This document shows positions 743 through 20,644 of a stretch of 64,000 nucleotides of DNA, one piece after another. The stretch's first letter is position 1; the number at the start of each line of letters is the position of its first letter. The notes beneath the pieces are model-generated. The model did no database searches. It worked only from the letters and a program-made list of their open reading frames with translations, and had not been told where the DNA came from. The position numbers and the translations under genes are program-made. This stretch comes from Dehalococcoidia bacterium (GTDB taxonomy: Bacteria; Chloroflexota; Dehalococcoidia; Lucifugimonadales; GCA-002694895), in contig JAPYRX010000001.1 in the NCBI GenBank assembly GCA_029936815.1, forward strand, positions 68,256 to 132,255, read 5' to 3'.

Positions 743-2230
743 ATGAGTGATTCTGAAATTTTATATAAATCAATATCAGAAATACAAAAACTACTATTAA
801 ATAAAAAATTGTCATCAGTAGAACTTACAAAATTAGCTCTAAAAAGAATAAATGAAACAAACGATAAAACCAATGCATTTCTTTACGTTGCTGATGAATA
901 CGCTCTAAAAGCTGCAAAAAAAATTGACTCTAAAATTACTACTGGAGAAGATATAGGTCTTCTTGGAGGAATTCCAACTTCAATAAAAGATTTAGAAGCA
1001 GTTAAAGGAATGCCTCATACAAACGGGTCATTATTTTATAAAGATAATATTGCTGATTTTGACCAACTTGGAATAGAAAGAATAAAAAATGCCGGCGGAA
1101 TAATACTTGGAAAAACAAATACACCTGAATTTGGATTATGCGCTACTACTGATAACAGGCTTGGAGATGACTGCAGAAATCCATGGGATTTAAACTGCAC
1201 TTCAGGAGGATCAAGCGGAGGAGCAGGAGCTGCAGTAGCTTCAGGAGTACATTCTCTCGCGCAAGGATCTGATGGCGGAGGATCTGTAAGAATTCCTTCT
1301 GGCTTATGCGGTATTTATGGGATTAAAGGTACCCAAGGAAGGATCCCAAGATACCATGGAGGACTACAAAGCTGGAATCCTATTAATTTCTCATGCATGG
1401 GGCCTATGAGCTGGCACGTTAGAGATAGCGCCATTATGTTACAAGTTATGTCTGGACCACATCCAAAAGCTGAATCAACAGCAATTCAGGCAACCCCACC
1501 AGATTTTATAGAAGATATAGAAAATGGAATATCTGGTAAAAAAATCGGATGGTCTCCTGACCTAGGATCAATCAATGTTGATCCTGAAGTTAAAAATGCA
1601 ACCGAAGATGCAGTTAAAACATTTGAAAACCTCGGTGCAACCATTGAACCTTTTGAATTTAAATATAACATTAGAGAATTAGCTGAAACTATAGGACCTA
1701 TTTTAGGAGCGCTTGGATACAATAAAAACGGGCATTTACTTGAAGAGAGTCCTGAAAAATTAATGAATTACACTAGGAAATTACTTGAGTTAGTAAAAAA
1801 CTGGGAAGGACCAGTATATATGAACGCAATATCTGAGCTTTATAAGTTTAGATATTATATGCAATCATTATTTGAACAATATGACTTTTTAGCTACCCCA
1901 ACTATGGCTATCTCCGCACATGAATGTGGGAATCCACCTCAATCAGTTGACGGAGTAGAACAATTTGATTTTGGGTTCAGATCTATGCAACCATCTTATG
2001 GAGACGATAACACTTCTCATAAAAATGGCGCAGGTTTATTAGCTCAATTTACAGCTATATTTAACTGGTCTGGGAATCCGGCTGCAACTTTACCCTGTGG
2101 ATTTTCATCTAAGGGATTGCCAATTTCTCTACAAATAGCAGGAGCTAGCGAAAACGAAGTAGGAGTTCTACAAGCTTCCAGAGCTTTTGAAAGAATAAAG
2201 CCTTGGCATAATAAAAAACCAATTCTATAA
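743..2230 (+). CDS. Amidase, amidase-signature (AS) family
   Basis: 495-residue member of the amidase-signature family, which hydrolyses carboxamides with a Ser-cisSer-Lys triad. The triad is visible as Lys82 (SIKDLE), Ser157 (in GGSSGG) and Ser181 (in GSDGGGSVRIPS); the 24-residue gap between the two serines is the family spacing. GatA is unlikely because no gatB or gatC is adjacent. The ATG at 743 is preceded by AGAGGG six bases upstream. The gene is followed after 14 bases by an N-acyl-D-amino-acid deacylase, suggesting an operon for amide or N-acyl amino acid breakdown. The exact substrate is unknown. The enzyme has no signal peptide and is probably cytoplasmic. Confidence 0.9.
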   Translation: MSDSEILYKSISEIQKLLLNKKLSSVELTKLALKRINETNDKTNAFLYVADEYALKAAKKIDSKITTGEDIGLLGGIPTSIKDLEAVKGMPHTNGSLFYKDNIADFDQLGIERIKNAGGIILGKTNTPEFGLCATTDNRLGDDCRNPWDLNCTSGGSSGGAGAAVASGVHSLAQGSDGGGSVRIPSGLCGIYGIKGTQGRIPRYHGGLQSWNPINFSCMGPMSWHVRDSAIMLQVMSGPHPKAESTAIQATPPDFIEDIENGISGKKIGWSPDLGSINVDPEVKNATEDAVKTFENLGATIEPFEFKYNIRELAETIGPILGALGYNKNGHLLEESPEKLMNYTRKLLELVKNWEGPVYMNAISELYKFRYYMQSLFEQYDFLATPTMAISAHECGNPPQSVDGVEQFDFGFRSMQPSYGDDNTSHKNGAGLLAQFTAIFNWSGNPAATLPCGFSSKGLPISLQIAGASENEVGVLQASRAFERIKPWHNKKPIL

Positions 2231-2244
2231 AAACAGGAGATATT

Positions 2245-3846
2245 ATGAATAACCTAGAAATAAAAAACGCAACAATAGTAGATGGATTAGGTAAAGACCC
2301 TTATAAAGGAAATATATATATTAAAAATGGAAAAATAATTGCTTTAACACATAATGAATTCCTTGATGCTGAAAAATCGATTGATGCAAAAGGAAAAATA
2401 GTCACCCCAGGGTTTATTGATCTTCACACTCATAGTGATGCTTCCTTTTTAGTTGATTCAAAGGCAGACAGTAAGGTTAGGCAAGGGGTTACATTAGAAT
2501 TAATAGGTAATTGTGGTATGAGTACTTGTGCCCCTTTAATTGGAGAGGCCAAAACAATATTTAACCAACGTGTGTCTATGTTAGATGCATCTGGTGATCT
2601 ACAAGCAGATTGGACAGATTATGCTGGCTATATTAGAGCCATGAAAACAGCCGGGGCTCCACTAAATGTTGCATTTCAAGTGGGTCATGGAACTCTTAGA
2701 ACTGCTGTAATAGGATTAGATGACAGGGCTCCATCCACGGATGAATTAAATACTATGAAAAAGCTTGCTGCCGAATCATTAGATGCAGGAGCTTTAGGAT
2801 TATCTACAGGATTATTTTATGCACCAGGATACTACGCAAGAACAGACGAAGTAATTGCGATAGCAGAAGAAGTAGGAAAAAGAAATAAATTATATTCTAC
2901 TCATCAAAGAGATGAAGGAAGCAGAACAGTCGGACTATTTGTATCTCTAAATGAAGCAATTGAAATTGGAAGAAGAGCTAATTGCAAAGTTCAGATATCA
3001 CATGTTAAATGCGCTGCTCAAAAAGTATGGGGAAAATCAGAAGAGTACTTGGAATTACTAGAGAACACTTTAAAAGAAGGGATTGATATAGCAGGAGATC
3101 AATATCCGTATACAGCATCTAGTACGGCATTAACAGGAGCTTTATTTCCAAGGTGGTCTTTGGCAGGCGGAAGGGAAAAAACATTAGAATACATGTCAAA
3201 TGAAGATGATCGTGGCAGATTAGTGGATGAAATAACTGATACATTTTCTAAGGGAAGAGGCGCAGAAGGAATAATTATAGCAAGATATGTTCAAGATGAG
3301 TCATTGGAAGGAAAAACATTGATTGAAATAGCAGAATCATTAGGAACAAACCCTGCAGAAGCAGCGTTACGAATATACCAAGAAGGTGAAGCGAGTGTAG
3401 TTAGTTATGGGATGACAGACGAAGATGTAGAAACTTTTGCGTCTCATCCTTTAATTGCAGTTGCATCTGATGGATCATCATTGTCAACAACAGGTAAATT
3501 ATCGGTAGGGAAGCCTCATCCTAGGAGTTATGGAACAAATCCAAGATTTATTCAAAAATATGTAAATGAAAAAAAAGTTGTTACGATTCAAGAAGCAATT
3601 AGAAAAATGACTTCTATGCCTGCTGAAAGACTGGGTCTAACTAATAGAGGAAGATTAACGCCAGGATATTCAGCAGATGTTGTTATTATGGACCTTCCTA
3701 ACGTTAAAGAAAAAGCAACTTTTGCTGATCCTCATCAATACCCAGAGGGAATATCACATGTAATTGTAAATGGAGAAATTGTTGTTGAGAATGAAAAATA
3801 CAATGGTAGCACACCGGGTCAAATGATAACTGATTTCAATTCATAA
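2245..3846 (+). CDS. N-acyl-D-amino-acid deacylase (amidohydrolase superfamily)
   Basis: 533-residue amidohydrolase of the D-aminoacylase group, which releases D-amino acids from N-acyl derivatives with a metal centre. Visible signatures are the metal-binding HTH at His61/His63 (GFIDLHTHSD), Cys90 in GNCG (the family's bridging cysteine), His220 (STHQRDEG), His253 (ISHVKC) and Asp409 (VASDGS). The C-terminal part ending in NRGRLTPGYSADVVIMD is the usual composite beta-sandwich region. AGGAG lies about seven bases before the ATG. With the upstream amidase it looks like a two-gene unit for D-amino-acid or N-acylated amino-acid salvage, possibly from cell-wall remains. A related N-acyl amino-acid or dihydropyrimidinase-type activity cannot be excluded. 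Confidence 0.88.
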   Translation: MNNLEIKNATIVDGLGKDPYKGNIYIKNGKIIALTHNEFLDAEKSIDAKGKIVTPGFIDLHTHSDASFLVDSKADSKVRQGVTLELIGNCGMSTCAPLIGEAKTIFNQRVSMLDASGDLQADWTDYAGYIRAMKTAGAPLNVAFQVGHGTLRTAVIGLDDRAPSTDELNTMKKLAAESLDAGALGLSTGLFYAPGYYARTDEVIAIAEEVGKRNKLYSTHQRDEGSRTVGLFVSLNEAIEIGRRANCKVQISHVKCAAQKVWGKSEEYLELLENTLKEGIDIAGDQYPYTASSTALTGALFPRWSLAGGREKTLEYMSNEDDRGRLVDEITDTFSKGRGAEGIIIARYVQDESLEGKTLIEIAESLGTNPAEAALRIYQEGEASVVSYGMTDEDVETFASHPLIAVASDGSSLSTTGKLSVGKPHPRSYGTNPRFIQKYVNEKKVVTIQEAIRKMTSMPAERLGLTNRGRLTPGYSADVVIMDLPNVKEKATFADPHQYPEGISHVIVNGEIVVENEKYNGSTPGQMITDFNS

Positions 3847-5506: not shown

Positions 5507-6433
5507 TTACGTTTTGCCTCTTAATTTAGGATCCAAACTATCTCTTAAGCCATCTCCAAACATGTTAACTGCAAGGGCTAAAAAGAATAGTCCTAAAGAA
5601 GGTAGTATAACAATATTAGCGTTACCAATGAAATATATTCTTCCTTCACCAATAATATTTCCCCACGTGGGAATATCAGGTGGTACGCCTGCTCCTAAGA
5701 AACTTAAACTAGCTTCAGATAAGATAGCAGATGCAAACAAAAAGGTAGCTTGTACAATAACAGGTGCGAAGGTATTTGGAGCAATGTGTCTAAATAATAT
5801 TCTTCTTTTTGACGCCCCAAAAGCATTAGCCGCATCTACATATTGTGATTCTCTAATAGTTAAAACTACAGATCTAACAATTCTAGATGTTCTAGGTGCA
5901 TCAACAACAGTTAAAGCAATAATAACATTTTCTAATTTAGGGCCTAATATAGCCATTAACACAATGGCAAGCAAGATTCCAGGAATAGCCATAATACCAT
6001 CCATAAATCTCATTATTATGTCATCTAATTTCGAAAAGTATCCAGCTAATATTCCAATCATAGTACCTATTGATGCAGCTAATATTGCAACGGACAAGCC
6101 AACTACTAAGGAAATTCTGGAACCATATATAACCATTGAAAATATATCTCTACCTAAAGGTCCTGTTCCAAACAAGAACAAATCACCATCCGGACTTCTT
6201 CCCGGAGGGAGTAGTCTGTTTAGAGGATCAAATATATAAGGATCTCTTAGTATTCCTACTTTAATCAATAAAGGAGCTAGTAACGCTAAAATAACTACCA
6301 TTGAAATAAAAATTAACCCAATAAGCATATTTGGGTTTCTTAACACAGCATCTTTGGAAGCTATATGCCAAGGTATTTTCTCTCGTAATCCCTGGAATGC
6401 TAATTCTTGTTTTGTTTCAGTTTTACTACTCAT
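5507..6433 (-). CDS. dppC: Dipeptide/oligopeptide ABC transporter permease, DppC type (first locus)
   Basis: 308-residue inner-membrane permease with an N-terminal hydrophobic segment, the conserved periplasmic loop with PLGRDIFSMVIYGSRISL, and the cytoplasmic EAA loop around VDAANAFGASKRRILFRHIAPN. The end SEASLSFLGAGVPP...LGDGLRDSLDPKLRG is diagnostic for the DppC/OppC family. It is one base downstream of dppB and forms the membrane channel with it. No DppD or DppF ATPase gene follows; a lipoprotein gene lies 130 bases downstream. Peptides or nickel are both known substrates for the family; peptides are favoured by the peptidase-rich context. Confidence 0.92.
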   Translation of the reverse strand: MSSKTETKQELAFQGLREKIPWHIASKDAVLRNPNMLIGLIFISMVVILALLAPLLIKVGILRDPYIFDPLNRLLPPGRSPDGDLFLFGTGPLGRDIFSMVIYGSRISLVVGLSVAILAASIGTMIGILAGYFSKLDDIIMRFMDGIMAIPGILLAIVLMAILGPKLENVIIALTVVDAPRTSRIVRSVVLTIRESQYVDAANAFGASKRRILFRHIAPNTFAPVIVQATFLFASAILSEASLSFLGAGVPPDIPTWGNIIGEGRIYFIGNANIVILPSLGLFFLALAVNMFGDGLRDSLDPKLRGKT

Positions 6434-6434
6434 A

Positions 6435-7382
6435 TTAACTATCGTACCTTATTCTTGGATCTACAAAAACATATAAAATATCAATTATTAAATTAACCAT
6501 AACATAGATAAGAGCTACAACTAATATTGTGCTCTGTATAATTTGGAAATCTCTCTGTGAAATTGCTTCTGTAATTAATCTGCCCATCCCAGGGATAGCA
6601 AAAACAGTTTCAGTGATAACAACACCGCTAATAAAACCAGCAACACTAAAACCTATAACAGTAAGAACCGGATTGGCAGCATTTCTAAAAGCATGTCTTA
6701 GTAAAACAATTGTTTCACCTAATCCTTTTGATCGAGCAGTTCTAACATAGTCTTCTTTTAGAACTTCTAACATAGTCGCTCTAGTCATTCTTGTTATGAG
6801 AGCTGATCCAGCAAATCCTAGCACAAAAGAAGGTAACAACAAATGGTGTAAATATTGCCAAAAGTTATCACTCATGTACACATAGCCCCCCGCGGGAAAC
6901 CACTCTACTTTCACAGCAAATAAAAATATTACAACATAGCCAAGAGCAAAATATGGGACTGCATAACCAGTCAAAGCAAGTATCATAACAATTCGATCAA
7001 ATATAGAATTCATCTTCCAAGCAGCTAATACTCCTGCTGGAATAGATACCAAAATAGAAATAGATAAACTTAATACAGCTAAAGATAAAGTAGGTTCTGC
7101 TCTATCCATAATTAACCCAGAAACACTATGTCCTGAAAAAATAGATTCGCCTAAATCACCAGTAGCAACTCCTTTTACAAATCTCCAAAACTGAAGCGGT
7201 ATGGGATCTAATAATCCCATAGCTTCTCTCATAGCTTCAACTTGTTCATAATCAGCATCCTCGCCAGCCATTATTGCAGCAGGATCACCTGGAGCTAAAT
7301 GAATGATTGAAAATACTACAACCCCGACAATTGCCATTGTAGGTAAAGCTGCTAGTAATCTTTTTATTATATAGCGTTGCAT
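6435..7382 (-). CDS. dppB: Dipeptide/oligopeptide ABC transporter permease, DppB type (first locus)
   Basis: 315-residue permease with the DppB/OppB N terminus (MQRYIIKRLLAALPTM), the loop HLAPGDPAAIM, the EAA loop EDYVRTARSKGLGETIVLLRHAFRN, and the family C terminus DILYVFVDPRIRYDS. It is the upstream partner of dppC (one-base gap). It lies 148 bases downstream of the binding-protein gene, behind a strong hairpin terminator, so permease transcription probably depends on read-through and would be lower than that of the binding protein. Confidence 0.92.
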   Translation of the reverse strand: MQRYIIKRLLAALPTMAIVGVVVFSIIHLAPGDPAAIMAGEDADYEQVEAMREAMGLLDPIPLQFWRFVKGVATGDLGESIFSGHSVSGLIMDRAEPTLSLAVLSLSISILVSIPAGVLAAWKMNSIFDRIVMILALTGYAVPYFALGYVVIFLFAVKVEWFPAGGYVYMSDNFWQYLHHLLLPSFVLGFAGSALITRMTRATMLEVLKEDYVRTARSKGLGETIVLLRHAFRNAANPVLTVIGFSVAGFISGVVITETVFAIPGMGRLITEAISQRDFQIIQSTILVVALIYVMVNLIIDILYVFVDPRIRYDS

Positions 7383-7466
7383 AATATCTGATTCGAAAAA
7401 TATATAAATAGTATTAAATATTATCTAAGAAGATCCTTAAATAATCAACAGGTTTAATAAAAAAAA

Positions 7467-7497
7467 GCCGCTGAAAATTACATTCAGCGGCTTTTTT
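7467..7497 (-). terminator. Intrinsic terminator/attenuator between binding protein and dppB
   Basis: Perfect 9-bp stem GCCGCTGAA / TTCAGCGGC (7467-7475 with 7483-7491), 7-base loop. It is flanked by runs of A on the left (7459-7466) and T on the right (7492-7497), so it can terminate in both directions. On the minus strand it ends the binding-protein transcript before dppB. Confidence 0.85.
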
Positions 7498-7529
7498 AGT
7501 TTTAATGTCTAAAATAAATATTTATTTAT

Positions 7530-9281
7530 TTATTTATCCATCCAAGTATTAGTCAAACGAGTGGAATCAGAGTAGTCATGAGCACCATGAGTTGATGATC
7601 TCCATACGTGATAACCAGAGTTCTGACCAGGAGATATATGTGATACCTGATCATAGTATGATTGTTGTACTTGGTCAATAACTTTTGCTCGACCAGCATC
7701 AGTTAATTCTCTAGTATATTGAGCCTGTAAGTCAATAATGGTCTGGTTTGTGTGCCATCCATATGTCTTAGGACTTAAGTACCAGTTCATAACTGGGTTG
7801 TTACTAGGAATTCCGCAACAACCAGTGTGGAAGATATCCCAAGCGTCTTTGTTCTGTCTAATAGTAACAGCAGTCGCCCAGTCAGTCATGGTCATATTCA
7901 TTTTATAACCAATTTCCTTGAATCTAGCAATGTTTATTAAAGATCGGTCTCTGTGTGTCTGGTAAGAAGTGTTACTTACCATTTCAACAACATCGTTATC
8001 TAAGTCCCAACCAGATTCTGCAACGAAAGCATCTCTGTATTCTTTAGCTTTAGTTAAGTCTGCTTGGTTATACATATCCTTACCAGCTGCGCTTTCTCCA
8101 GGAGTACCGCATAAGAAAATAGCATGGCATGTTTGCCATAGCTGTGCAGGTCCGTGCACTGACATTAATTTCTCAGCATCTTGTGCAGCCTGAAGTGATT
8201 TTCTCCAATTCAAGTATTTACCAGGTGATTTTGTGTGGTTTAGAAGTAAAATCGGTGTACCAGGGGAAGATACTTTCATTCCCATGTTTGGATCATCTTT
8301 CAAGGCAAGGTACTGCTCTGCACTACCAGAAGTAGCGTAGTCAATTTTTCCTGTTTTCAAACCAGCTAATAGAGTGGTTTTATCAGGAACCTCAACAATG
8401 TTTACACCATCAACCCATACGGATTCGCCTTCAGGCACCATACCTGTCCAGCCTTGGTGTGGCTCGTACTCAAATCTGTAACCAGGTACCCATTTCTTAA
8501 GTACATATGGTCCTGAGGAAATGTATGTACTACCTTCGTATCCGTCTGTTGCAACACGAGAGTTAGCATCTGTTGCTGCTACTGAAGCTTTCATAATAAA
8601 AGGAGCCTCAGAGAATCCCATAGATAATACAGGGTATGGTTCTTTCATATTTAATGTGAAGGTAGATGCATCTACAACACTGATACTTTTATCTGAGAAG
8701 TTTCCTTCTGTTGTTCTTTTCATCATTTGGATACCAGCAGTAATTCTGTCAGCCCATCTGAATGCAGATTTCTGTATGTCAGTTGCAGTTACTTTAGAAC
8801 CGTCATGGAATTTCATATTATCTCTAAGAGTAAAAGTCCATTTCAATCCGTCAGGTTGCATTTCCCATTTCTCGAAACCATTGTTTTGGTATTGGAAGTC
8901 TACGTCAAGTCTTTGTAGGCTATCGTATACCATTTGAGAGCTTCTCCAAGTAACTGTAGCAGTTGTCCATACTGGATCAATAGCTTTTACTGGAGCTTCT
9001 AACGCCCATACTAATATACCGCCTTTCTTGATACCACCGGCAGCAGCTTTTGCTTTAACAACTGCACCGGCTGTTGGAGCCGTAGGAGCAGTAGGAGTCT
9101 GAGCAAGTGATGCAACACCACTAGGTTTCGCAGGTTGAACTTGTGCCTTAGTTGAAGCATCTGATGCTTTCGGTGCTTGTGGCGCCGATGGAGCAGCAGG
9201 CGAACTGGATGCTGAATCACTCGAGCAACCAAGAACAAATGCAAAAACTAACACAAAAGGTAAAAGTCTGAAATATTTCAT
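7530..9281 (-). CDS. Extracellular solute-binding protein, family 5 (peptide ABC transporter lipoprotein)
   Basis: 583-residue peptide-binding lipoprotein. The signal peptide ends in the lipobox VLGCSSD (lipidated Cys about position 19). A low-complexity Ala/Pro/Ser/Lys linker follows to about residue 85, then the SBP_bac_5 fold (GILVWALEAPVKAIDP..., TFTLRDNMKFHDGSKVTATDI, FEYEPHQGWTG, IVEVPDKTTLLAGLKTGKIDY). The Pro/Ala-rich linker probably holds the domain away from the membrane. A perfect AGGAGG six bases before the ATG and a leader hairpin just upstream suggest high expression. It heads the locus with dppB-dppC downstream; ligand peptides are likely but not proven. Confidence 0.92.
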   Translation of the reverse strand: MKYFRLLPFVLVFAFVLGCSSDSASSSPAAPSAPQAPKASDASTKAQVQPAKPSGVASLAQTPTAPTAPTAGAVVKAKAAAGGIKKGGILVWALEAPVKAIDPVWTTATVTWRSSQMVYDSLQRLDVDFQYQNNGFEKWEMQPDGLKWTFTLRDNMKFHDGSKVTATDIQKSAFRWADRITAGIQMMKRTTEGNFSDKSISVVDASTFTLNMKEPYPVLSMGFSEAPFIMKASVAATDANSRVATDGYEGSTYISSGPYVLKKWVPGYRFEYEPHQGWTGMVPEGESVWVDGVNIVEVPDKTTLLAGLKTGKIDYATSGSAEQYLALKDDPNMGMKVSSPGTPILLLNHTKSPGKYLNWRKSLQAAQDAEKLMSVHGPAQLWQTCHAIFLCGTPGESAAGKDMYNQADLTKAKEYRDAFVAESGWDLDNDVVEMVSNTSYQTHRDRSLINIARFKEIGYKMNMTMTDWATAVTIRQNKDAWDIFHTGCCGIPSNNPVMNWYLSPKTYGWHTNQTIIDLQAQYTRELTDAGRAKVIDQVQQSYYDQVSHISPGQNSGYHVWRSSTHGAHDYSDSTRLTNTWMDK

Positions 9282-9299
9282 TCGAACCTCCTAACTTAT

Positions 9300-9327
9300 T
9301 GGTCTCAGAATAAAAATTCTTAGACCA
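9300..9327 (-). promoter_or_regulatory. 5' leader hairpin next to the ribosome-binding site of the first binding protein
   Basis: Stem TGGTCT-C-AGAAT / ATTCT-T-AGACCA (11 pairs, one mismatch, AAAA loop). It ends six bases before the AGGAGG (9288-9293). There is no T run, so it is not a terminator; it may stabilise the mRNA or adjust initiation. The second binding-protein gene has a hairpin in the same place. Confidence 0.6.
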
Positions 9328-9405
9328 TTTTGTATTTATAAAAAATCAAATGTAAAGATAGTAGAAATAATATGAATTCCTACCATCAAAAAATTTGTAG
9401 GTACT

Positions 9406-9434
9406 AAGTTACTAGTTATTTATAATAATGTCAA
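9406..9434 (-). promoter_or_regulatory. Putative sigma-70-type promoter for the first peptide-transport locus
   Basis: On the minus strand, TTGACA (9429-9434) is a perfect -35 element, followed after exactly 17 bases by TAACTT (9406-9411), a weaker -10. It would give a leader of about 115 bases containing the hairpin at 9300-9327. Confidence 0.45.
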
Positions 9435-9507
9435 CTTAAATTTTCTTTTTTGAAGTTAGATTAAGCCATATTAGTAAAATGTAACTAGATTCATGAAATT
9501 TTGATAA

Positions 9508-10800
9508 CTAATCACATCTGCTTATGTTACTTTTGTGCATTTTGAAGATAATAACATCCCCTTCATCTTCATCAGAATGCAGGCCTATAGAGTAAAGTGA
9601 ATCCTTAAAATATATAATATCAGTAAAGATTTCATTTTTTCCATAATTTAATTTATAAATACCATTATCTGCAAATGAATTATCGAAATTTCCTTTATTA
9701 TCAATCATTATCAAGGAAGCGTCTTCATTATCATTATTCTTAATTGTTCCTGCTAGTAATATCTGATTTTCATTTATTGCTACCAAACTTGTTGATATAG
9801 AGTCAGTCGGGATATCTGAAAAAATTCTAGTCCCTCTCTTTCCAAAATCTTCATCAATGATTCCGTCAACGTCAAATTTTGTTACTAAAATATTAAAATT
9901 TACTAAGTTATCAATAAATCCGGATGCATAGATATCTTGACCAATGATATCAAGATCATAGATTAACCCTGGGGGACTAAATTTCCAAACCATCAAACCA
10001 TTTTGCCCAAAAGAATCAACTAATTTTCCTTCAGCATTAATCTTTGCAAAAGCTACTTTTGGAGTAGCTCCGGAATTACTTGATCCTCCTATAATCAATT
10101 CGCCCTTATCAGTTTTCACAGCAGAATAGGCAACATCATCACTTAGTCCAAAATCTATCGTCACCCGTCCAATTTTATTAAAACTATAATCCAAATCTCC
10201 ATTAGGTTTATATTTAGCGACTGCAAAATCATCATCTTTCCCATTGCTTGATCTACCAATAGCAAAAAAAGTTCCATCCTTATTTAATATCATCTTATTG
10301 ATGGCATCATCTCTATATCCAAAGTCAGTTATTACTTTGCCCATCTCGCCAAAAGATTTTATATTTTCGCCTTTTGAGTTAAATTTAGCTAAAGAATAAT
10401 CAAACAATACCATTCCTAAATCAACTCCATGGTTTGATCGTCCGCCTATGATAAATGATTGATCATCCAGTAATAAAATTTGATTTCCTTCATCTATTCC
10501 TGCATCAATGTCAAACATGGTTTTCCCTTCTTGAGAAAATGAATTATCTAAGTTCAAATCTTTATTCATTTTAATCAGTAAATAATCAGTGGGATCATCC
10601 TGTTTGCTTGTAGTTCCTGTTATGTAAATTTCACATTTTTTTGAAATAGCAAATGATTGAGGAACCTCATAAAATCCAAAATCAAATTTGTTATGTGAAA
10701 TATTATAAGAATCATAATTAAATACTTCTTGTTCTTTCATGAAAGAACAAGAAGTATTTAATATTAAAATTAAAACTGCAAATGAAAAGAGTCTATACAT
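9508..10800 (-). CDS. Lipoprotein with delta-60 repeats
   Basis: 430 residues. The signal peptide (MYRLFSFAVLILILNTSCS) carries a lipobox Cys at about position 18. The rest is a chain of roughly six imperfect units of 55-60 residues, each with a pattern like LDxSFGxxGxVxxDFGxxDD...xGGxSN...FAxAKxNxxGxL, which is the delta-60 repeat predicted to form beta-propeller-like blades. Such proteins are usually exported; the function is not known. Neighbours are peptide-transport genes but on separate transcripts. Codons 13 to 28 lie inside a 46-bp perfect palindrome (10717-10762), described separately. Confidence 0.75.
   Translation of the reverse strand: MYRLFSFAVLILILNTSCSFMKEQEVFNYDSYNISHNKFDFGFYEVPQSFAISKKCEIYITGTTSKQDDPTDYLLIKMNKDLNLDNSFSQEGKTMFDIDAGIDEGNQILLLDDQSFIIGGRSNHGVDLGMVLFDYSLAKFNSKGENIKSFGEMGKVITDFGYRDDAINKMILNKDGTFFAIGRSSNGKDDDFAVAKYKPNGDLDYSFNKIGRVTIDFGLSDDVAYSAVKTDKGELIIGGSSNSGATPKVAFAKINAEGKLVDSFGQNGLMVWKFSPPGLIYDLDIIGQDIYASGFIDNLVNFNILVTKFDVDGIIDEDFGKRGTRIFSDIPTDSISTSLVAINENQILLAGTIKNNDNEDASLIMIDNKGNFDNSFADNGIYKLNYGKNEIFTDIIYFKDSLYSIGLHSDEDEGDVIIFKMHKSNISRCD
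10717..10762. repeat. 46-bp perfect palindrome inside a signal-peptide coding region
   Basis: The 22-base arms (10717-10738 and 10741-10762) are exact reverse complements around a central AT, so all 46 bases read the same on both strands. It begins ATTAAATACTTC and ends GAAGTATTTAAT. It covers the lipobox and the following residues of the delta-60 lipoprotein. Mismatch resumes immediately on both sides. Confidence 0.95.
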
Positions 10801-10843
10801 ACCTTATAATAATAAATAATTTGTAAATTAAAGTAATCTAATA

Positions 10844-11287
10844 ATGAATTTTTATTTAAACATTGTAGACGTAACAAATATTGTAGCAAGAACTACTTTG
10901 TCTATTCTTCTATCATCCATGTTTGGATTTGTTATATTTCCTATCTCTTTTCTTGTATTGATAGGATTGTTTGGAATAAATACATTAAACTTTGAATATA
11001 TAACTCCGATTATAATAGCATCTTGTGCGTTTTTTGGAAATTTTTTTTCTTGGTTAAAAAATGATTATAAGAATATACATTTTAAATGGATCATAAGTAT
11101 AATTATTATCTCGATAAGTTCTGCCTACATCGGTAGCGCTAAAGGAATGGCCGCAGAAAGATCAATGATACCACTCGGGGTTCCTGAATTGAGAGATACA
11201 TTCATTTGGTGTACAACTATAACGAGCTTTTGGAGTATGATTTATTGGACAATTATGAAAATGCTTAATAAAACAAGAAAGTTATAA
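10844..11287 (+). CDS. Small integral membrane protein, family not recognised
   Basis: 147 residues with four hydrophobic segments (about residues 14-45, 51-68, 80-98 and 120-137) separated by short charged loops (KNDYKN, AKGMAAERS). No family motif is recognised. It stands alone on the plus strand between minus-strand genes; its last six bases overlap the 3' end of the convergent dppC gene. The start ATG has no clear Shine-Dalgarno sequence. The clean reading frame and typical composition support it as a real gene, but the role is unknown. Confidence 0.6.
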   Translation: MNFYLNIVDVTNIVARTTLSILLSSMFGFVIFPISFLVLIGLFGINTLNFEYITPIIIASCAFFGNFFSWLKNDYKNIHFKWIISIIIISISSAYIGSAKGMAAERSMIPLGVPELRDTFIWCTTITSFWSMIYWTIMKMLNKTRKL

Positions 11288-12163
11288 TTGCCTTAATCTT
11301 GGATCTAACTTGTCTCTTAACCAATCCCCTAAGAAATTCAAAGACATAACAACCAAAAATATAGCAAGACCAGGGAAGAATGATCCCCACCAAGAACTAC
11401 TAAGATATTCTTTTTCTTCCGAAACCATTAATCCCCAAGCAGGTGTTGGAGCAGGTATTCCAGCTCCAATAAAGCTTAATGTTGCCTCAGTTAATATTAA
11501 TTGGCCAACCCTTAACGTAGCAACAACGATAATAGTATTAACTACATTAGGAAAAATGTGCTTGACAATAATTCTTGTTGTAGATGCTCCAGCAACTTTT
11601 GCAAGATTTACATAATCTCTAGTCTTCAATGATAAAACCTCAGCCCTAACATATCTAACAAAGCTTGCCCATGTAAATAAAGCCAATAATAACATTACTG
11701 TTTGGACGCTTGGTCCAAGAACAATAGCCGCAATCAAAGCTAATAATACAAAAGGTAATGCCAGCCACACATCGACCAATCGCATAATTAATTCATCAAC
11801 TAGCCCTCCTGCATACCCTGCAACTAACCCTAAGGTTGAACCTACTAAAACTCCGCTAGCAAGAGAAATAGCTACGACAGTTAAAGAAATTCTAGCACCA
11901 TGAATAATTCGACTAAATACATCTCTGCCTACGTGATCTCCGCCTAAAAATCTACCTTCAGCTCCTCCATCCATCCACGAAGGCGGCGAGTTCCTTAATT
12001 TCAAATTTTGTGAAGTAGGGGAATTTGGAGCTAATTGATTAGAAAAAACACCCGTAAAAATTAGAACAGCTAATATAAAAACAGGTATAATAGGCCATTT
12101 TCTAAAAGCATTCCAAAATTTAAAGATATTAATAGTTTTAAATATATTCATTACTCTATCCAT
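11282..12163 (-). CDS. dppC: Dipeptide/oligopeptide ABC transporter permease, DppC type (second locus)
   Basis: 293-residue DppC/OppC-family permease: an N-terminal hydrophobic segment, then GGDHVGRDVFSRIIHGARISL, the EAA loop RDYVNLAKVAGASTTRIIVKHIFPN, and the C terminus TEATLSFIGAGIPAPTPAWG...LGDWLRDKLDPRLRQL. It follows dppB with three bases between. No ATPase gene follows; the next gene on the far side is convergent. It differs clearly in sequence from the first DppC, so the two loci are not a recent duplication. Confidence 0.92.
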   Translation of the reverse strand: MDRVMNIFKTINIFKFWNAFRKWPIIPVFILAVLIFTGVFSNQLAPNSPTSQNLKLRNSPPSWMDGGAEGRFLGGDHVGRDVFSRIIHGARISLTVVAISLASGVLVGSTLGLVAGYAGGLVDELIMRLVDVWLALPFVLLALIAAIVLGPSVQTVMLLLALFTWASFVRYVRAEVLSLKTRDYVNLAKVAGASTTRIIVKHIFPNVVNTIIVVATLRVGQLILTEATLSFIGAGIPAPTPAWGLMVSEEKEYLSSSWWGSFFPGLAIFLVVMSLNFLGDWLRDKLDPRLRQL

Positions 12164-12166
12164 ATT

Positions 12167-13117
12167 TTAATCATACCTAATTCTTGGATCTGCAAATCCA
12201 TAGCTTACATCAGCTAAAAATGTAAAAAACAAATATGCAGCAGAGAAAAACAATACTGTACCCGTCAGTAAAGCAAAATCATTGTTTGTAACTGCTTGTA
12301 TTGCTAATCTTCCAATCCCTGGCCAAGAAAAAACTAATTCAACTACGGTAGCACCAGTTATAAAGCCAGCCAAAAACAAGGCAGAATAAGTAATAGGAGG
12401 AATAAGGGCGTTCCTAAATGCATGTTTCCATATAACACTATTAGTACTAACACCTTTTGCCCTAGCTAATTTAACAAATTCTGAATCCATAATTTCTAAC
12501 ATAGCAGAGCGAGTTAACCTCGTATAAGTAGCTGACCCACCCCATCCTAAAGTTATAGTAGGCAGAATGAAATGTTTCGTTTTTTCCCAAAAAGTATCTG
12601 TTGATTCTCCCATGCCAAACGCTGGTAACCAACCGAGTTGCACTGCAAAAATTAATATAGCCACTATAGCTATCCAAAACGTTGGTAAAGCTTGTCCAAA
12701 TAATGCAAAGCCCCTTGCTAGATAATCAGTAATTCCTCCACGTTTAATTGAAGATATTATTCCCAATGGTACTCCTGTTAATATAGCAAACAACCAAGCA
12801 GTAAGCGCAAGATATGCAGTAGCAGGTAGTTTTTCCCATATCATTGTAGATACTGGAGTTCTATCTAATAAGCTTTTACCTAGGTCACCTTGTAGAGCGT
12901 TCCATATCCAAACAAAATATTGAACTATTAAAGGTTTATCTAATCCCAAATATGCTCTTAAATATTCTTTTTGTTCCGGGGGCATTCCATATCCACCGGC
13001 TTGCGCATATAAAAGAAGAGGATCTCCTATCAATCTAGACATACAAAAAACGATAATTGTAGCAGCAAACATGGAAAATATGGCGAAGTATAATCTTCTG
13101 AATAAAAATCTTGTCAT
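12167..13117 (-). CDS. dppB: Dipeptide/oligopeptide ABC transporter permease, DppB type (second locus)
   Basis: 316-residue DppB-family permease with N terminus MTRFLFRRLYFAIFSM, the GDPLLLYA loop, the EAA region SEFVKLARAKGVSTNSVIWKHAFRN and the C-terminal signature DVSYGFADPRIRYD. It sits 133 bases downstream of the second binding protein, again behind a hairpin terminator, and directly upstream of its DppC partner. Confidence 0.92.
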   Translation of the reverse strand: MTRFLFRRLYFAIFSMFAATIIVFCMSRLIGDPLLLYAQAGGYGMPPEQKEYLRAYLGLDKPLIVQYFVWIWNALQGDLGKSLLDRTPVSTMIWEKLPATAYLALTAWLFAILTGVPLGIISSIKRGGITDYLARGFALFGQALPTFWIAIVAILIFAVQLGWLPAFGMGESTDTFWEKTKHFILPTITLGWGGSATYTRLTRSAMLEIMDSEFVKLARAKGVSTNSVIWKHAFRNALIPPITYSALFLAGFITGATVVELVFSWPGIGRLAIQAVTNNDFALLTGTVLFFSAAYLFFTFLADVSYGFADPRIRYD

Positions 13118-13196
13118 TTCACGCCTAGAATAAGTTGTTGTTTAACTTCATAGTCTATAGAAAATAATTTGATAGTCAAGTTTATTATACAAAAAA

Positions 13197-13229
13197 GAAA
13201 GGGAATCAATTAAGATTCCCTTTCTTTTT
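13197..13229 (-). terminator. Intrinsic terminator/attenuator between second binding protein and dppB
   Basis: Stem GAAAGGGAATC / GATTCCCTTTC (13197-13207 with 13214-13224), 6-base loop AATTAA, A run on the left and T run on the right, so functional in both directions. It occupies the same place as the terminator of the first locus. Confidence 0.82.
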
Positions 13230-13250
13230 AATCATTAAGGTTTAGATTTT

Positions 13251-15083
13251 TTACTTTAATTTTATATTTGCAAATGTTGAAGTTCCAAATGGCGTAGGTT
13301 GCATAACCCAGTCGCTTATAACATTAGGGTTATAAGTTGTTAACTGAGGAAGAGCAACAACACCTGGCTGTAGAGCCCAGTAATGAACGTGATCAATAAA
13401 TTGATCTGCGTAATCTAGTCTCTTAGCCAAACTTGGTTCCTTAGCAGCTTTTTTATACAATTCAGCAATTGTTGGTGTCTCAAAACACACACAATAACCA
13501 CCTCTTGTTAAACTACTGTTAACCAAACCTTTTGGTTTATCATGAGGATATACGGACTGACCGTCATCATCAGAATACAGGATAGGAATAGTACTTGTTC
13601 TTCCAACAAGTCCTGGTCTGTGAACAGCATAAGGATATTTCAATACTGGAGTTTTAAGTCCAATCGCTTCCATGTATCCACCTACTGCGTCAGCAATTTC
13701 CTCTCCTAATCCACCATTACTTCCACTAGGAACGAAAATAGGTAATTCAAAGAAGTAATCTCCTTTTTTGCTATACCCAGCTTTTTCCAAGCTTGCTACT
13801 GATCCTCCTGGATCATAAGCAATTTTCCATTCTTCTTTGTGGTACTCATTTTTAGGATCTATAAATGCAACATAATTTGGAGTCCCAAGACCGCCTAATA
13901 ATTCAGAATTTATAGTATCTCGATCTAGAGACGAAGCAACTGCCCATCTTACTAATCGAGCTTGTTCCATGTCATCCATTCCATCAGGGTTATTACTATC
14001 CTTAGGGCTAAACGGGTTACCAATCCAAGGAATTTCTCTAGCATAAACACCGCTACCAGCGATATCTAATTTAGCTCCAGTTCCAGCATGTACTGATTCC
14101 CACATATTTCCTGAGAAATAAAAACTAAATTGGTTAGCATTACCAGCAGTTGTTGTGGCAAAACCGGCAGCTACCATTTCAGGAACACTCTTAAGTGCTA
14201 ATTCAGTAGCATCAATTTCTCCTGTTTGCATACCAGCAATTCTAACTTCGTTTTGAGGAACAGCTTTTACAATAATTTTTCTTGCTTGAGGATTTGGGAA
14301 TTCCCAATGTCCATCCCAAGCATTAAAAACAGCTGTGTCATCTCTGATCCAACTTTCAACTTCGTAAGGCCCCGTAGCAACAACGTTCTCTTTTGCCCAG
14401 TCCTCATCATTTTCATCAAAAGCTTTTTTGGAATGTATTACAACTCCAACGAAACCACCTGTATTCATTAAGTTATTCACCCATGCAACGTCAAAGTTTT
14501 CAAAAGAAAAGTTTACATTTTGACCATCTGCCACTGCAGGATTTTTACCAAATAATGAAGCAAAGTTTGCCGCGCTTGGTGCAATACTATGCGGAGTAAT
14601 CATCGGGTTTGTTTTGTTATAACTATGAACAACGTCATCAGCAGTCATTTCACCATAACCTTTATGGAATTTTACTCCACTTCTGATTTTTACGCTCAAA
14701 GAAGAAAGATCATCTGACAAAGTATAACTTTCAGCTATTTGTCCAGCTTCATAGTTAATACCTCCGTTTGGAGCTTTGCCTGCATCTGTCCATCTCCATG
14801 TAAATAAATCTTCTCCTATACCCCAAGCAACAGAATCATAAGCACCGCAATAAACAGTGTTAACTCCATGTGGGCATTGAAGAGTAGATTGAGCGAAAAC
14901 AATTGTTCCTTTTTCTTGTTTACTTGCTCCCGGCCCTTTTGTAGACTCAACTACAGGTACCGCAGTAGATGTTGCAGCAGCATCACTTGTGCTAACTGCT
15001 TCTTCGTCTGAAGAACATGCAAATGCAAACATCAAAGCAACAGAAACAAGAAACATAGGCGTCAAACGCCATAATTTTTTCAT
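13251..15083 (-). CDS. Extracellular solute-binding protein, family 5 (second locus)
   Basis: 610-residue lipoprotein with signal peptide and lipobox FAFACSSDE, a short Ser/Thr/Ala-rich linker, then an SBP_bac_5 fold (SYTLSDDLSSLSVKIRSGVKFHKGYGEMTADDVVHS..., GPYEVESWIRDDTAVF, MQTGEIDATEL). It binds the substrate delivered to the dppB-dppC pair downstream. An AGGAGG lies six bases before the ATG, with a promoter and a leader hairpin upstream. Sequence similarity to the first binding protein is confined to the family motifs, so a different ligand range is likely. Contacts with peptide ligands cannot be assigned by eye. Confidence 0.92.
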   Translation of the reverse strand: MKKLWRLTPMFLVSVALMFAFACSSDEEAVSTSDAAATSTAVPVVESTKGPGASKQEKGTIVFAQSTLQCPHGVNTVYCGAYDSVAWGIGEDLFTWRWTDAGKAPNGGINYEAGQIAESYTLSDDLSSLSVKIRSGVKFHKGYGEMTADDVVHSYNKTNPMITPHSIAPSAANFASLFGKNPAVADGQNVNFSFENFDVAWVNNLMNTGGFVGVVIHSKKAFDENDEDWAKENVVATGPYEVESWIRDDTAVFNAWDGHWEFPNPQARKIIVKAVPQNEVRIAGMQTGEIDATELALKSVPEMVAAGFATTTAGNANQFSFYFSGNMWESVHAGTGAKLDIAGSGVYAREIPWIGNPFSPKDSNNPDGMDDMEQARLVRWAVASSLDRDTINSELLGGLGTPNYVAFIDPKNEYHKEEWKIAYDPGGSVASLEKAGYSKKGDYFFELPIFVPSGSNGGLGEEIADAVGGYMEAIGLKTPVLKYPYAVHRPGLVGRTSTIPILYSDDDGQSVYPHDKPKGLVNSSLTRGGYCVCFETPTIAELYKKAAKEPSLAKRLDYADQFIDHVHYWALQPGVVALPQLTTYNPNVISDWVMQPTPFGTSTFANIKLK

Positions 15084-16955: not shown

Positions 16956-18773
16956 TTATCCTAATAAATATTTCGTCAAAAACTCAGCTATCGCTGTATC
17001 AGCTGTTATTCGGTTTTCTTCTTTTACAAACCCATGGCCTTCATCTGAAAATCGAACAAAATCTACAGGTTTCCCTGCTTCTTTTAATTCACTTACTAAC
17101 TGTTCAGTTTCATACATTGGTACTCTAGGATCTTCATCTCCATGAAGAACTAAAAGTGGCGTGGTAATATTATCTATTTTATGAATTGCAGATATATCTT
17201 CTAATAATTTTCGATCTTTAATTGGATCTCCGTATTCATATGCTCTATGTTGAGCTCTATAAGAAGCCGTTCTCTCAAAAAAAGTAACCATATTTACCAT
17301 TCCATACAATTCTACTGCTGCAGCCCATAAATCAGGATATTCTGTTATACATGCAAGAGTCATAAATCCTCCATAACTACCTCCCATGACAGCAATTTTA
17401 TCTTTTGATGCCCATCCTGAATCTACTACCCATTTCCATAAATATTCAATATCTTTTACAGAATCCATACGTTTGTAAATATCATCTAAATGGCCATAAG
17501 CTTCACCATAACCTCCGCTACCTCTAACATTTGGTAGTAAAATTCCTATTCCTCTACTAGCCAAATATTGTAATTGCGGTTTAAATGTTGGTCTCTCTTG
17601 TCCTTCGGGACCTCCATGAATTAAAATTAAAACAGGATTGTCTTCCCCTTTTTTAAAATCCTTTGGCTTTAAGAAAAAGAAAGGAATGTCTCTATTGTCA
17701 AATGTATTAAAAGTATGCAAAGAAGGACTAGGTAAATCATTTAATTTGATATTTCCTTCGTATGATTTTTTAAAAAACTCATACTTTTGGCTATTTAAAT
17801 CAAATTTGATTATTTCAGGATTTTGATTAGTAGCATTAATTGTAAATAATATATTTGATTTATCCAGAATACATAAGCCCCAAGCCCATCCTGGTTCCAT
17901 AAACGTCACTTCTTTTGGGTTGTCATATAAATTAAAATCATGATTTGATAAATCTAATAAACCTAATTTTGAGTATCCTTGTTCATTAATATAGAAAAAA
18001 ATTCGATTATTAAATTTATCTCTTTTTATAAATTCAACTTCATGTTCTGCATGATAAATATAATTTAATTTGTTGTCTGACAAGTCTATTGTTGCTATTC
18101 CTGAAAAATCTTTACCTTCATTGGTTATTATTGTAATCTCGTTATCTTCATCATTAAAAAAAGCATCTTTAAAGCCTCCCATCAAATCATTGTTGGAGAT
18201 TTGATTTATCTCACCAGTTTCAATATCTAAAAGTTTCAAGTATTGATATCGATTTGTTCTTTCTTCAGTAAATAGTATGAATTTTTGATTATTTGAAAAT
18301 GCTTTAAAAGAAACATTATGAATATTATCGCCTGTTTGATGAATTAATTTTGAACTTCCATTAATCGAATGAGTATAAAGGTCAAAATATCCTAGGTCTC
18401 TTTTATTAGATGAATAGACAACTGTATTGCCATCATTACTCCATCCTCCGAAATCGTTTCTTATATTCGTGTCGTCTGTTAAAGAAATAATTCTAGAATG
18501 GTCAGATGCATCAATAAGTTTAATTTGAAAATTTTCATCCCCGCCTTTGTCAATTGCAAACAATATCCATTCTCCATTAGGAGACCATGATACTAAAGCT
18601 ACTCTTTCTAAATAATTAGTAATTTGCCTGTGAGTGCCGTTTTTATCTGAAATCCAAATTTGAGGAGTCCCTGAAATATTGTTTAAATATGCTACGTTTT
18701 TTCCATCCGGAGAAGAAGTAGGGGAACAAGAATAAGGTATTTTTATTAATTCTTTTATATCAAGATTAGCCAC
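16956..18773 (-). CDS. S9-family serine peptidase (acylaminoacyl/prolyl oligopeptidase type)
   Basis: 605-residue cytoplasmic peptidase: an N-terminal beta-propeller with TolB/WD40-like blades (SPDGKNVAYL, SWSPNGEWILFA, GWSNDGNTVVYSS) to about residue 350, then an alpha/beta-hydrolase domain. The catalytic triad is readable as Ser466 (GGSYGGFM), Asp548 (HGDEDPRVP) and His580 (DEGHGF). The oxyanion-region motif LIHGGPEGQERP is typical of S9C acylaminoacyl peptidases. The start is GTG at 18773 with GAGG six bases upstream. It probably cleaves short peptides imported by the Dpp systems and leads a three-gene operon with the GNAT and MFS genes. Confidence 0.9.
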   Translation of the reverse strand: MANLDIKELIKIPYSCSPTSSPDGKNVAYLNNISGTPQIWISDKNGTHRQITNYLERVALVSWSPNGEWILFAIDKGGDENFQIKLIDASDHSRIISLTDDTNIRNDFGGWSNDGNTVVYSSNKRDLGYFDLYTHSINGSSKLIHQTGDNIHNVSFKAFSNNQKFILFTEERTNRYQYLKLLDIETGEINQISNNDLMGGFKDAFFNDEDNEITIITNEGKDFSGIATIDLSDNKLNYIYHAEHEVEFIKRDKFNNRIFFYINEQGYSKLGLLDLSNHDFNLYDNPKEVTFMEPGWAWGLCILDKSNILFTINATNQNPEIIKFDLNSQKYEFFKKSYEGNIKLNDLPSPSLHTFNTFDNRDIPFFFLKPKDFKKGEDNPVLILIHGGPEGQERPTFKPQLQYLASRGIGILLPNVRGSGGYGEAYGHLDDIYKRMDSVKDIEYLWKWVVDSGWASKDKIAVMGGSYGGFMTLACITEYPDLWAAAVELYGMVNMVTFFERTASYRAQHRAYEYGDPIKDRKLLEDISAIHKIDNITTPLLVLHGDEDPRVPMYETEQLVSELKEAGKPVDFVRFSDEGHGFVKEENRITADTAIAEFLTKYLLG

Positions 18774-18880: not shown

Positions 18881-20626
18881 ATGAATGTTTTAATAAGGAT
18901 AGCTTCTTACACTTTAAAATTCAAACCATATTTATTGCTAGGATATGTGTGTACTATTGGTGCTGTGGTCAGTTACCTTATGATACCTGAATTACTAGGC
19001 GGAATTGTAGACAAAATAGACCCTAGTTCAGACTCTGAATCATTCTACTCTTCAATTAACTTATACTTTTTGCTATTCTTTCTTTTTGTACTTGGATGTA
19101 CCAGGGGCTTATTTTCTTATGGACAAAACTATTTTGGCGAAGCTCTTTCATTCAAAATATCTAAAATATTACGAGACCAATTATATGACCAAACTCAAAA
19201 ATTAGACTTTTATTTTCATAATAAATCACATACTGGCGAAATGATGTCTAGAGTTATTGTTGATATAGAAGGAATGCGAATGTTCATACCAATGGGGATA
19301 ATCAGATCCCCTTATGTGTTTTTGATGTTTGTGGGATGTATTGTTTTACTACTTCTTAAGGATACTGAGCTCGCTTTATATGCTTGTTCATTTCTTGTAA
19401 TTGCAGGCTTGATTTCTGCAAGAATGCGAGTGAAATTAAGAGGAATATGGTTAAAAGTACAAGAAAAAAATGCTGAATTAAATGCTATTCTTCAAGAGAA
19501 CCTCAATGGAATAAAAGTAGTAAAAGCATTTTATGCAGAAGATCACCAAATAAACAAATTCAAGAATACCAATGAAGAATTTAAAGACGTAAATATAAAA
19601 GTAGAAAACTACAGAGCTGTAACCATGACTACAGTATTATTTGCATATTGGATGGTGTTAGGACTAGTATTGGCTGTAGGTGGCATTAAAGTCATTAATG
19701 GTGAAATGAATATAGGGGACCTGACAAGTTTTATGTTTTATTTACAATTACTTGCTATGCCTGTGAGAATGATTGGTTGGTTACTTAATGCATCCACTCG
19801 TGGATCTACTTGTGGTAAAAGAATTTTTGATATTTTAGATACTGAGTCAGAAATTAAAAACAACAAAAATACTAATACAAACTTTTTTAGAATGAAGGGC
19901 GAAATAGAATTTCAAAATATTTCTCATCAATTCCCAGATTCGATAACTGAAAGTTTGAAAAATATTAATTTATCAATTTCAAAAAATCAAAAAATATCTA
20001 TTACTGGTGAAGCTGGTAGTGGGAAAAGTACTTTAGTCCAATTGCTACTCAGATTTTATGATCCAAAAAACGGGATTGTTCTAATAGACGGGGTTGATAT
20101 AAGAAATATTAATTTAGGTACTCTAAGAAGAAATATTGGTTATGTCCACCAAGATGTTTTTATTTTTAACGAAACATTTGGAAATAATATAAAATATGGA
20201 AACCCGGACGCTTCAATGGAAGAAATAATAAAAGTCAGTAAAATTTCGCAAATTCATGATTATATAAATTCCTTGCCCGAGAAATACGATTCTCTTATTT
20301 CTGAAAATGGAGCAAATTTATCAGGAGGACAAAAACAAAGAATAAGTATCGCAAGAACTTTATTGCTAAATCCTCCTATATTAATTTTAGATGACTCAAC
20401 ATCAAGTGTAGACGCAACTACAGAAAATGAAATTCAAAATTCATTGGATGAGCTTGTGGAAGGAAGAACAGTAATAAATATTGCTCACAAATTAAATAAT
20501 TTCAAAAAATCTGGAAATATTATTGTTATGCATAACGGCGTTATAATTGAAACCGGCACACATGATAATTTACTAGGCACTAATGGAGTATATAAAAAAA
20601 TATATGATTTGCAAACTTCCAACTAA
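18881..20626 (+). CDS. ABC exporter half-transporter with degenerate ATPase site (heterodimer subunit 1)
   Basis: 581-residue type IV ABC exporter half: six membrane helices (about residues 1-310), then a nucleotide-binding domain with Walker A GEAGSGKST, intact signature LSGGQ (480-484), Walker B LILDD and H-loop His536. The catalytic glutamate position is Asp505 (LDDSTSSVD), which makes this subunit's own ATP site weak. That is the known arrangement of heterodimeric exporters such as TM287/288 and BmrCD, and the next gene supplies the matching half. Substrate (drug, lipid or peptide) unknown. Confidence 0.88.
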   Translation: MNVLIRIASYTLKFKPYLLLGYVCTIGAVVSYLMIPELLGGIVDKIDPSSDSESFYSSINLYFLLFFLFVLGCTRGLFSYGQNYFGEALSFKISKILRDQLYDQTQKLDFYFHNKSHTGEMMSRVIVDIEGMRMFIPMGIIRSPYVFLMFVGCIVLLLLKDTELALYACSFLVIAGLISARMRVKLRGIWLKVQEKNAELNAILQENLNGIKVVKAFYAEDHQINKFKNTNEEFKDVNIKVENYRAVTMTTVLFAYWMVLGLVLAVGGIKVINGEMNIGDLTSFMFYLQLLAMPVRMIGWLLNASTRGSTCGKRIFDILDTESEIKNNKNTNTNFFRMKGEIEFQNISHQFPDSITESLKNINLSISKNQKISITGEAGSGKSTLVQLLLRFYDPKNGIVLIDGVDIRNINLGTLRRNIGYVHQDVFIFNETFGNNIKYGNPDASMEEIIKVSKISQIHDYINSLPEKYDSLISENGANLSGGQKQRISIARTLLLNPPILILDDSTSSVDATTENEIQNSLDELVEGRTVINIAHKLNNFKKSGNIIVMHNGVIIETGTHDNLLGTNGVYKKIYDLQTSN

Positions 20627-20644
20627 AAATAGCGTAATGATATT

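Follow-up and report, generated by a model that had tools for sequence, protein, structure and literature searches.

Borrelia burgdorferi is reported to use a single OppDF as the energy source of two peptide-family permeases, OppB1C1 and OppB2C2 (PMC5736914). In Firmicutes, MsmX and MsmK are multitask ATPases of sugar importers, as shown by experiment (PMC7658222), and in Pseudomonas aeruginosa DppBCDF is reported to work with DppA1-A5, several binding proteins for one permease (PMC4206461). Devosia is reported to possess many peptide transporters, and the passages dealing with them do not mention ATPase sharing (PMC6981132). Here we analyzed two importer loci, b and c, in a Dehalococcoidia bacterium (Chloroflexota). 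Both lie in a stretch of 64,000 nucleotides of contig JAPYRX010000001.1 (C24:68256-132255), hereafter called the window. Each encodes a solute-binding protein (SBP) and a DppB-DppC permease pair of an Opp/Dpp-type ATP-binding cassette (ABC) importer, and neither contains an ATPase gene. We consider it probable that the two importers have unlinked motors, with locus b being energized by a shared DppD-DppF ATPase pair, DF1, and locus c by another pair, DF2.

As in the Borrelia Opp system, peptide-family permeases here outnumber a heterodimeric DF pair that would be their common energy source. Unlike Borrelia, with its two permeases, up to 21 unlinked permease units were found per stand-alone pair, and there appear to be two hubs with separate client clades. 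The arrangement resembles MsmX/MsmK in that an orphan nucleotide-binding domain (NBD) gene accompanies incomplete importer loci and, as the gene content suggests, one ATPase serves many permeases. Unlike these sugar-importer NBDs, the candidates described here are DppD/DppF pairs, known from sequence alone, and their oligo_HPY domain places DF1 and DF2 outside the MsmX/MsmK family. With the P. aeruginosa Dpp system they have in common that parts of a peptide importer are shared by several partner proteins; in that system one permease works with several binding proteins, whereas in the present genomes one ATPase pair seems to serve several permeases. No report of a shared DppDF in Chloroflexota was among the papers listed by full-text literature searches, which left out most subscription journals.

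The host draft genome (G000; 1.46 Mb, 35 contigs, 89.7% complete) was compared with four genus-mates (G001-G004) and, at the level of the order, within a set of 11 genomes that also includes G007, G009, G014, G025, G036 and G043. Completeness of the genus genomes is 65-90% (79% for G002); G043 is 95% complete in two contigs, and G014 is near-complete with 3.1 Mb. The group of the host genome is, we presume, marine and SAR202-like. SAR202 cultures are described in PMC10444878, which serves here as background only. Permease units (BC, DppB-DppC) and ATPase pairs (DF, DppD-DppF) were delineated from all PF19300 places in the 11 genomes. A BC unit with no ATPase within 4 kb was termed unlinked, and a DF pair with no permease within 4 kb stand-alone. 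Permease trees were built by FastTree with all 110 units and by ultrafast bootstrap (UFBoot) with 52 of them, a subset that omits G004_L150 and G001_L144.

The original prediction held that the window contains no peptide-type ATPase, and none with an oligo_HPY domain was found there: all seven matches of the genome are located on C11, C29, C30 and at C24:57.9-59.1 kb. Together with one HPY-less partner they form four DF pairs, namely DF1 on C11, DF2 and the pairs of C29 and C30. The nearest, DF2 (C24:57.1-59.2 kb), lies 9-11 kb left of the window and 20 kb from locus c. The genome-wide count proposed at the same time thus sets four DF pairs, mostly unlinked, against six BC pairs (a, b, c, C13, C7 and C29), of which five have no DF in their operon. 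DF1 is located beside a ribosomal-protein gene cluster and has the same neighbours in G000, G002 and G003 (by eye, ribosomal-protein genes and rpoA). The C29 ATPases form one operon with their own SBP and permeases, a complete importer, and the C30 pair occupies a 3 kb contig, its surroundings being outside the contig. The DF1 and DF2 proteins match ABC_tran and oligo_HPY over the cut-offs and are encoded as pairs away from b and c; the closest named matches of the DF2 DppD come from metagenome-assembled genomes of Chloroflexi/Chloroflexota (87% and 86%). In the 11 genomes, a profile of eight ATPases separated peptide-type proteins (at least 273.8 bits) from other ABC ATPases (at most 195.8 bits), and given this clean gap, DF pairs are unlikely to have been overlooked for want of an HPY domain.

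Unlinked BC units exceed stand-alone DF pairs in ten of the 11 genomes. Within the genus the ratios are 5:3 (G000), 4:1 (G001), 3:1 (G002) and 5:2 (G004), the exception being G003 with 1:1; in the other genomes they are 3:1 (G007), 18:2 (G009), 11:1 (G014), 13:1 (G025), 7:1 (G036) and 21:1 (G043). Beyond its stand-alone pair, G043 encodes a D-type ATPase on its own (L119) and, beside a DppB, a protein in which D and F are fused (L120). NBD genes that lie apart from permeases and are outnumbered by them are the pattern of a shared (multitask) NBD; if all permeases work, some ATPase pair must therefore serve several of them. The median number of ATPase genes per DppB is 1.0 in the order (77/79 genomes) and 2.0 across the remaining phylum (115/119), the latter being the expectation if every permease had a D and an F of its own; these are raw counts including lone DppB, from genomes of all completeness in the order sample and of at least 90% in the phylum sample. 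DppB also exceeds oligo_HPY ATPases in three genomes outside the order, G145 (11 vs 2), G135 (23 vs 4) and G119 (25 vs 6). Such a surplus is therefore not unique to the order, and ATPase sharing may have arisen more than once.

The phylogenies of permeases and ATPases match each other. Relatives of DF1 form one clade, without adjoining permeases in ten of the 11 genomes; the G004 copy lies on a 4 kb contig, with its F end cut and one flank outside the contig. The DF2 clade (UFBoot 100) is sister to the DF1 clade (100) and includes pairs in operons with or adjoining permeases (L130, L131, L152 and L122). It is with the permeases of these same four loci that locus c groups (UFBoot 100 with 52 units, FastTree 0.984 with 110 units). 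The permeases of a and b group with those of G009_L151 (UFBoot 100, 52 units), whose linked ATPase pair is sister to the DF1 clade (UFBoot 88). Among 15 linked units, permease and ATPase distances are correlated (Mantel r 0.79, reached in 0/5000 permutations), and thus the position of a permease in its tree is informative about its ATPase. The linked relatives also make it doubtful that the split design was kept from a common origin, as had been proposed: members of both families are found in BC-DF operons (for c, L130 and L152; for b, L151), so each family may have undergone the split on its own.

The taxonomic distribution points in the same direction. C-type permeases and DF2-type pairs are present in an identical set of six genomes (G000, G001, G004, G007, G009 and G025), the G001 copy of locus c consisting of a DppC at the start of a contig; G002, G003, G014, G036 and G043 yielded neither. 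Because the genomes are related, this 6/11 match does not amount to 11 independent events. In G009, eight unlinked c-type units stand beside two DF2-type pairs, of which one is linked. In G002, the transketolase gene TktC is directly followed by SDR where DF2 is located in G000, G001 and G004, and MFS2 is directly followed by SBP_b where locus c is located in G000 and G004. Both empty syntenic sites are on one contig, with the genes between them retained, including a and b, whose proteins are 80-91% identical to those of the present genome. Since c and DF2 lie 20 kb apart with a, b and other genes between, this joint absence is not one deletion, and c seems to be inherited together with DF2 as a module of its own. 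In G002 (79% complete), DF1 is the sole D-F pair found. C13-type permeases are single-copy and unlinked in all 11 genomes.

A candidate for the docking determinant is the coupling helix of DppB. Positions fixed differently between c-type (16) and a/b-type (38) units are concentrated in the coupling loop (7/36 columns vs 8/268, Fisher p 0.0006, a value that overstates the evidence, given the relatedness of the units inside a clade). The helix motif [ED][YF]xK[LMF]A occurs in 16/16 c-type units and 0/94 others. The motif D[YF]xRTA, common in the family, was found in 37/38 a/b-type, 11/11 C13-type and 0/16 c-type units; as 19/45 units of other clades carry it too, it marks DF1 clients weakly. A strict form, [ED]DYxRTA, was rejected as a poor marker (26/37 unlinked a/b-type, 1/11 C13-type).

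Beyond the relatedness of units and genomes, several observations weigh against the assignment of b to DF1 and c to DF2. Enrichment of the fixed differences in the DppC coupling loop is not significant (4/40 vs 11/231, p 0.25). A test of loop similarity among clients within a genome failed for DppB (1313/2000 permutations reach the observed value) and gave a modest signal for DppC (27/2000), and differences between DF1 and DF2 are not enriched between the Q-loop and the signature (p 0.40 and 0.58). No DF1 was found in G001, and G003 is uninformative at the DF2 site, as LigA of that region was not found there. The b-DF1 link has a single linked anchor, G009_L151, joined at 88 in the ATPase tree and 0.8 in the 110-unit FastTree. 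By path length, C29 (2.29 and 2.20) is closer to a and b than any other linked unit, L151 (2.44 and 2.35) included, which makes b-to-DF1 the weaker step.

An alternative arrangement would be that all unlinked permeases, b and c among them, draw on one common pair, either DF1 or DF2, with the two DF pairs being redundant. The shortage of DF relative to BC pairs agrees with it, as do the status of DF1 as the only stand-alone pair found in G002 and G043 and the sister position of the two clades, which makes cross-docking possible; neither was an ATPase-side signature of separate docking found. We nevertheless regard it as unlikely, because it leaves unexplained why the trees match, why c-type permeases and DF2 share six of 11 genomes and are jointly gone from two G002 sites, and why the DppB coupling helices of the two families differ at fixed positions. 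The original prediction of a common ATPase pair is thus upheld as regards sharing, the DF pairs being fewer and mostly unlinked, and not as regards one pair for both b and c.

Still less probable is a scattered set with one pair for each permease, which the numbers contradict in G043, G036 and G009 and, with six BC and four DF pairs, do not favour in the present genome; for the 21 unlinked units and one stand-alone pair of G043, incompleteness provides no explanation (95%, two contigs). The complete C29 operon and the pairing of c with DF2 would suit it, and C7 (BC) and C30 (DF), both on short contigs, could be halves of one importer. C7 groups with C29 in the 52-unit permease tree (86), and in the ATPase tree C30 is placed next to C29; in the 110-unit tree C7 groups with G004_L150 and G001_L144 (0.991), both outside the smaller subset. 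This weakly suggests that C7 uses C30, and we do not rely on it. Finally, the ATPase-less loci might be decaying remnants, or their SBP-permease units receptors without transport. The 16 lone DppB of G014 show that stray permease genes occur in the order, and nothing observed supports this idea directly. With intact frames, 80-91% identity of DppB and DppC of a, b, c and C13 to genus orthologues, and hairpins that are conserved while both arms change, we give it only the slightest probability.

The assignment of b to DF1 and c to DF2 leads to the following model. Loci b and c would be complete SBP-permease halves of Opp/Dpp-type importers whose ATPase heterodimers are encoded elsewhere. DF1 would be a conserved hub that energizes b, its neighbour a and probably the C13 locus; DF2 would energize c and, in relatives, is probably common to several c-type permeases, while the C29 pair would serve C29 itself. 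Clients probably select their hub via the coupling helix of DppB, in which certain positions are fixed differently in the two permease families. Each split importer would then assemble physically from separately encoded halves. As to its regulation, the hairpin after the SBP gene probably reduces read-through, so that SBP is made in abundance and the permease in smaller amounts, and the amount of ATPase would be controlled on its own.

The two loci, b at 5507-9281 and c at 11282-15083, have the predicted order of SBP, bidirectional hairpin, dppB and dppC without dppD or dppF, as the open reading frames and hairpin folding confirm (Table 1). The BPD_transp_1 permease pair together with the PF19300 N-terminal domain on DppB identifies both as Opp/Dpp-type importers, and the SBPs exceed the PF00496 cut-off with 170 bits (b) and 137 bits (c). 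None of the six proteins (two SBPs, four permeases) reaches a curated NCBIfam cut-off, and 'Dpp' is therefore used for b and c as a family name only. A third locus of identical design, a (SBP-BC), ends 0.7 kb left of the window. The permeases of b and c share 37% (DppB) and 34% (DppC) identity, which agrees with the earlier view that they are diverged and not with the description of the loci as unrelated; they are diverged paralogues. In neither gap did any of 200 shuffled sequences fold equally well. The gap hairpins of a and b are kept in each of the four genus genomes with a and b (G000, G001, G002 and G004; 13-19 pairs), or in three of four each by a stricter scan, and that of c is present in both genus genomes with the locus, including G004. 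They are conserved though both arms change in sequence.

Table 1. Features of importer loci b and c (positions in the window)
Feature	Position	Strand	Remarks
SBP_bac_5 lipoprotein of locus c, 610 aa	13251..15083	-	PF00496 match C24:81884-82996; lipobox by eye in the translation
Hairpin between SBP_c and dppB_c	13192..13229		A/T tracts on both sides; z -5.7
dppB of locus c	12167..13117	-	PF00528 + PF19300; c-type clade; coupling helix MLEIMDSEFVKLARAKGV
dppC of locus c	11282..12163	-	PF00528
SBP_bac_5 lipoprotein of locus b, 583 aa	7530..9281	-	PF00496 match C24:76025-77131; lipobox by eye
Hairpin between SBP_b and dppB_b	7461..7497		A/T tracts on both sides, terminator-like; z -4.8
dppB of locus b	6435..7382	-	PF00528 + PF19300; a/b-type clade; coupling helix MLEVLKEDYVRTARSKGL
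dppC of locus b	5507..6433	-	PF00528

Several Dpp loci have genes of the amidase/amidohydrolase superfamily nearby (window 743-3846; L027:11085-12314; L030:6569-8167; L033:5386-7008), and Amidohydro_3 was found at the C29 and C13 loci. Near a and b are an amidase, an amidohydrolase and a Xaa-Pro dipeptidase-like protein, all under NCBIfam cut-offs, as is an S9-like peptidase at window 16956-18773. These neighbours hint at the importer substrates. By eye in the open reading frame list, two adjoining ABC-exporter-like half transporters of 581 and 603 aa were seen at window 18881-22456.

For the C7 and C29 loci, the four genus-mates offer no close orthologue (DppB at most 44%). That contigs C7, C29 and C30 are contaminants is not supported, as their GC content and tetranucleotide profile are within the range of pieces of other contigs; the diverged importer genes of C29 (L030), C30 (L031) and C7 (L032) are possible recent gains in spite of their ordinary composition. 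Slower evolution of the hub ATPases was dismissed. DF1 has 59-74% identity to its best match in six other families and the controls, linked pairs with D at 55% or more, have 56-72%, so conservation does not single out DF1.

G014 has 27 DppB matches, of which 16 are without adjoining DppC or SBP, including two tandem DppB-DppB pairs. As these 16 stand alone, the raw Pfam counts of this genome (27:6) were not used as evidence. Two of its DF pairs, L116 and L117, have linked permease genes whose divergent sequences escape PF19300. Lone DppB loci of G014 are L157-L161, L164, L168 and L170-L176, and among ten proteins checked the neighbours have nothing to do with one another (they include alcohol dehydrogenase, DNA methylase, MFS, Fic and triosephosphate isomerase). 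A solitary D-type ATPase, with neither F nor permease on the locus, forms a clade of its own in four of the 11 genomes (L119, L128, L132 and L133:12404-13540).

It can be tentatively proposed, at somewhat less than even confidence, that the order runs large importer families from two clade-specific DF hubs with their own DppB docking codes, so that permeases duplicate without new ATPases. If this is true, the importer repertoire would be limited by permeases and binding proteins and not by motors, the loss of one ATPase pair would silence many importers together, and the number of uptake systems would be underestimated by a tally of complete operons. Two hubs whose clients can be told apart would then also provide a natural system for studying how an ABC ATPase is matched to its permease.

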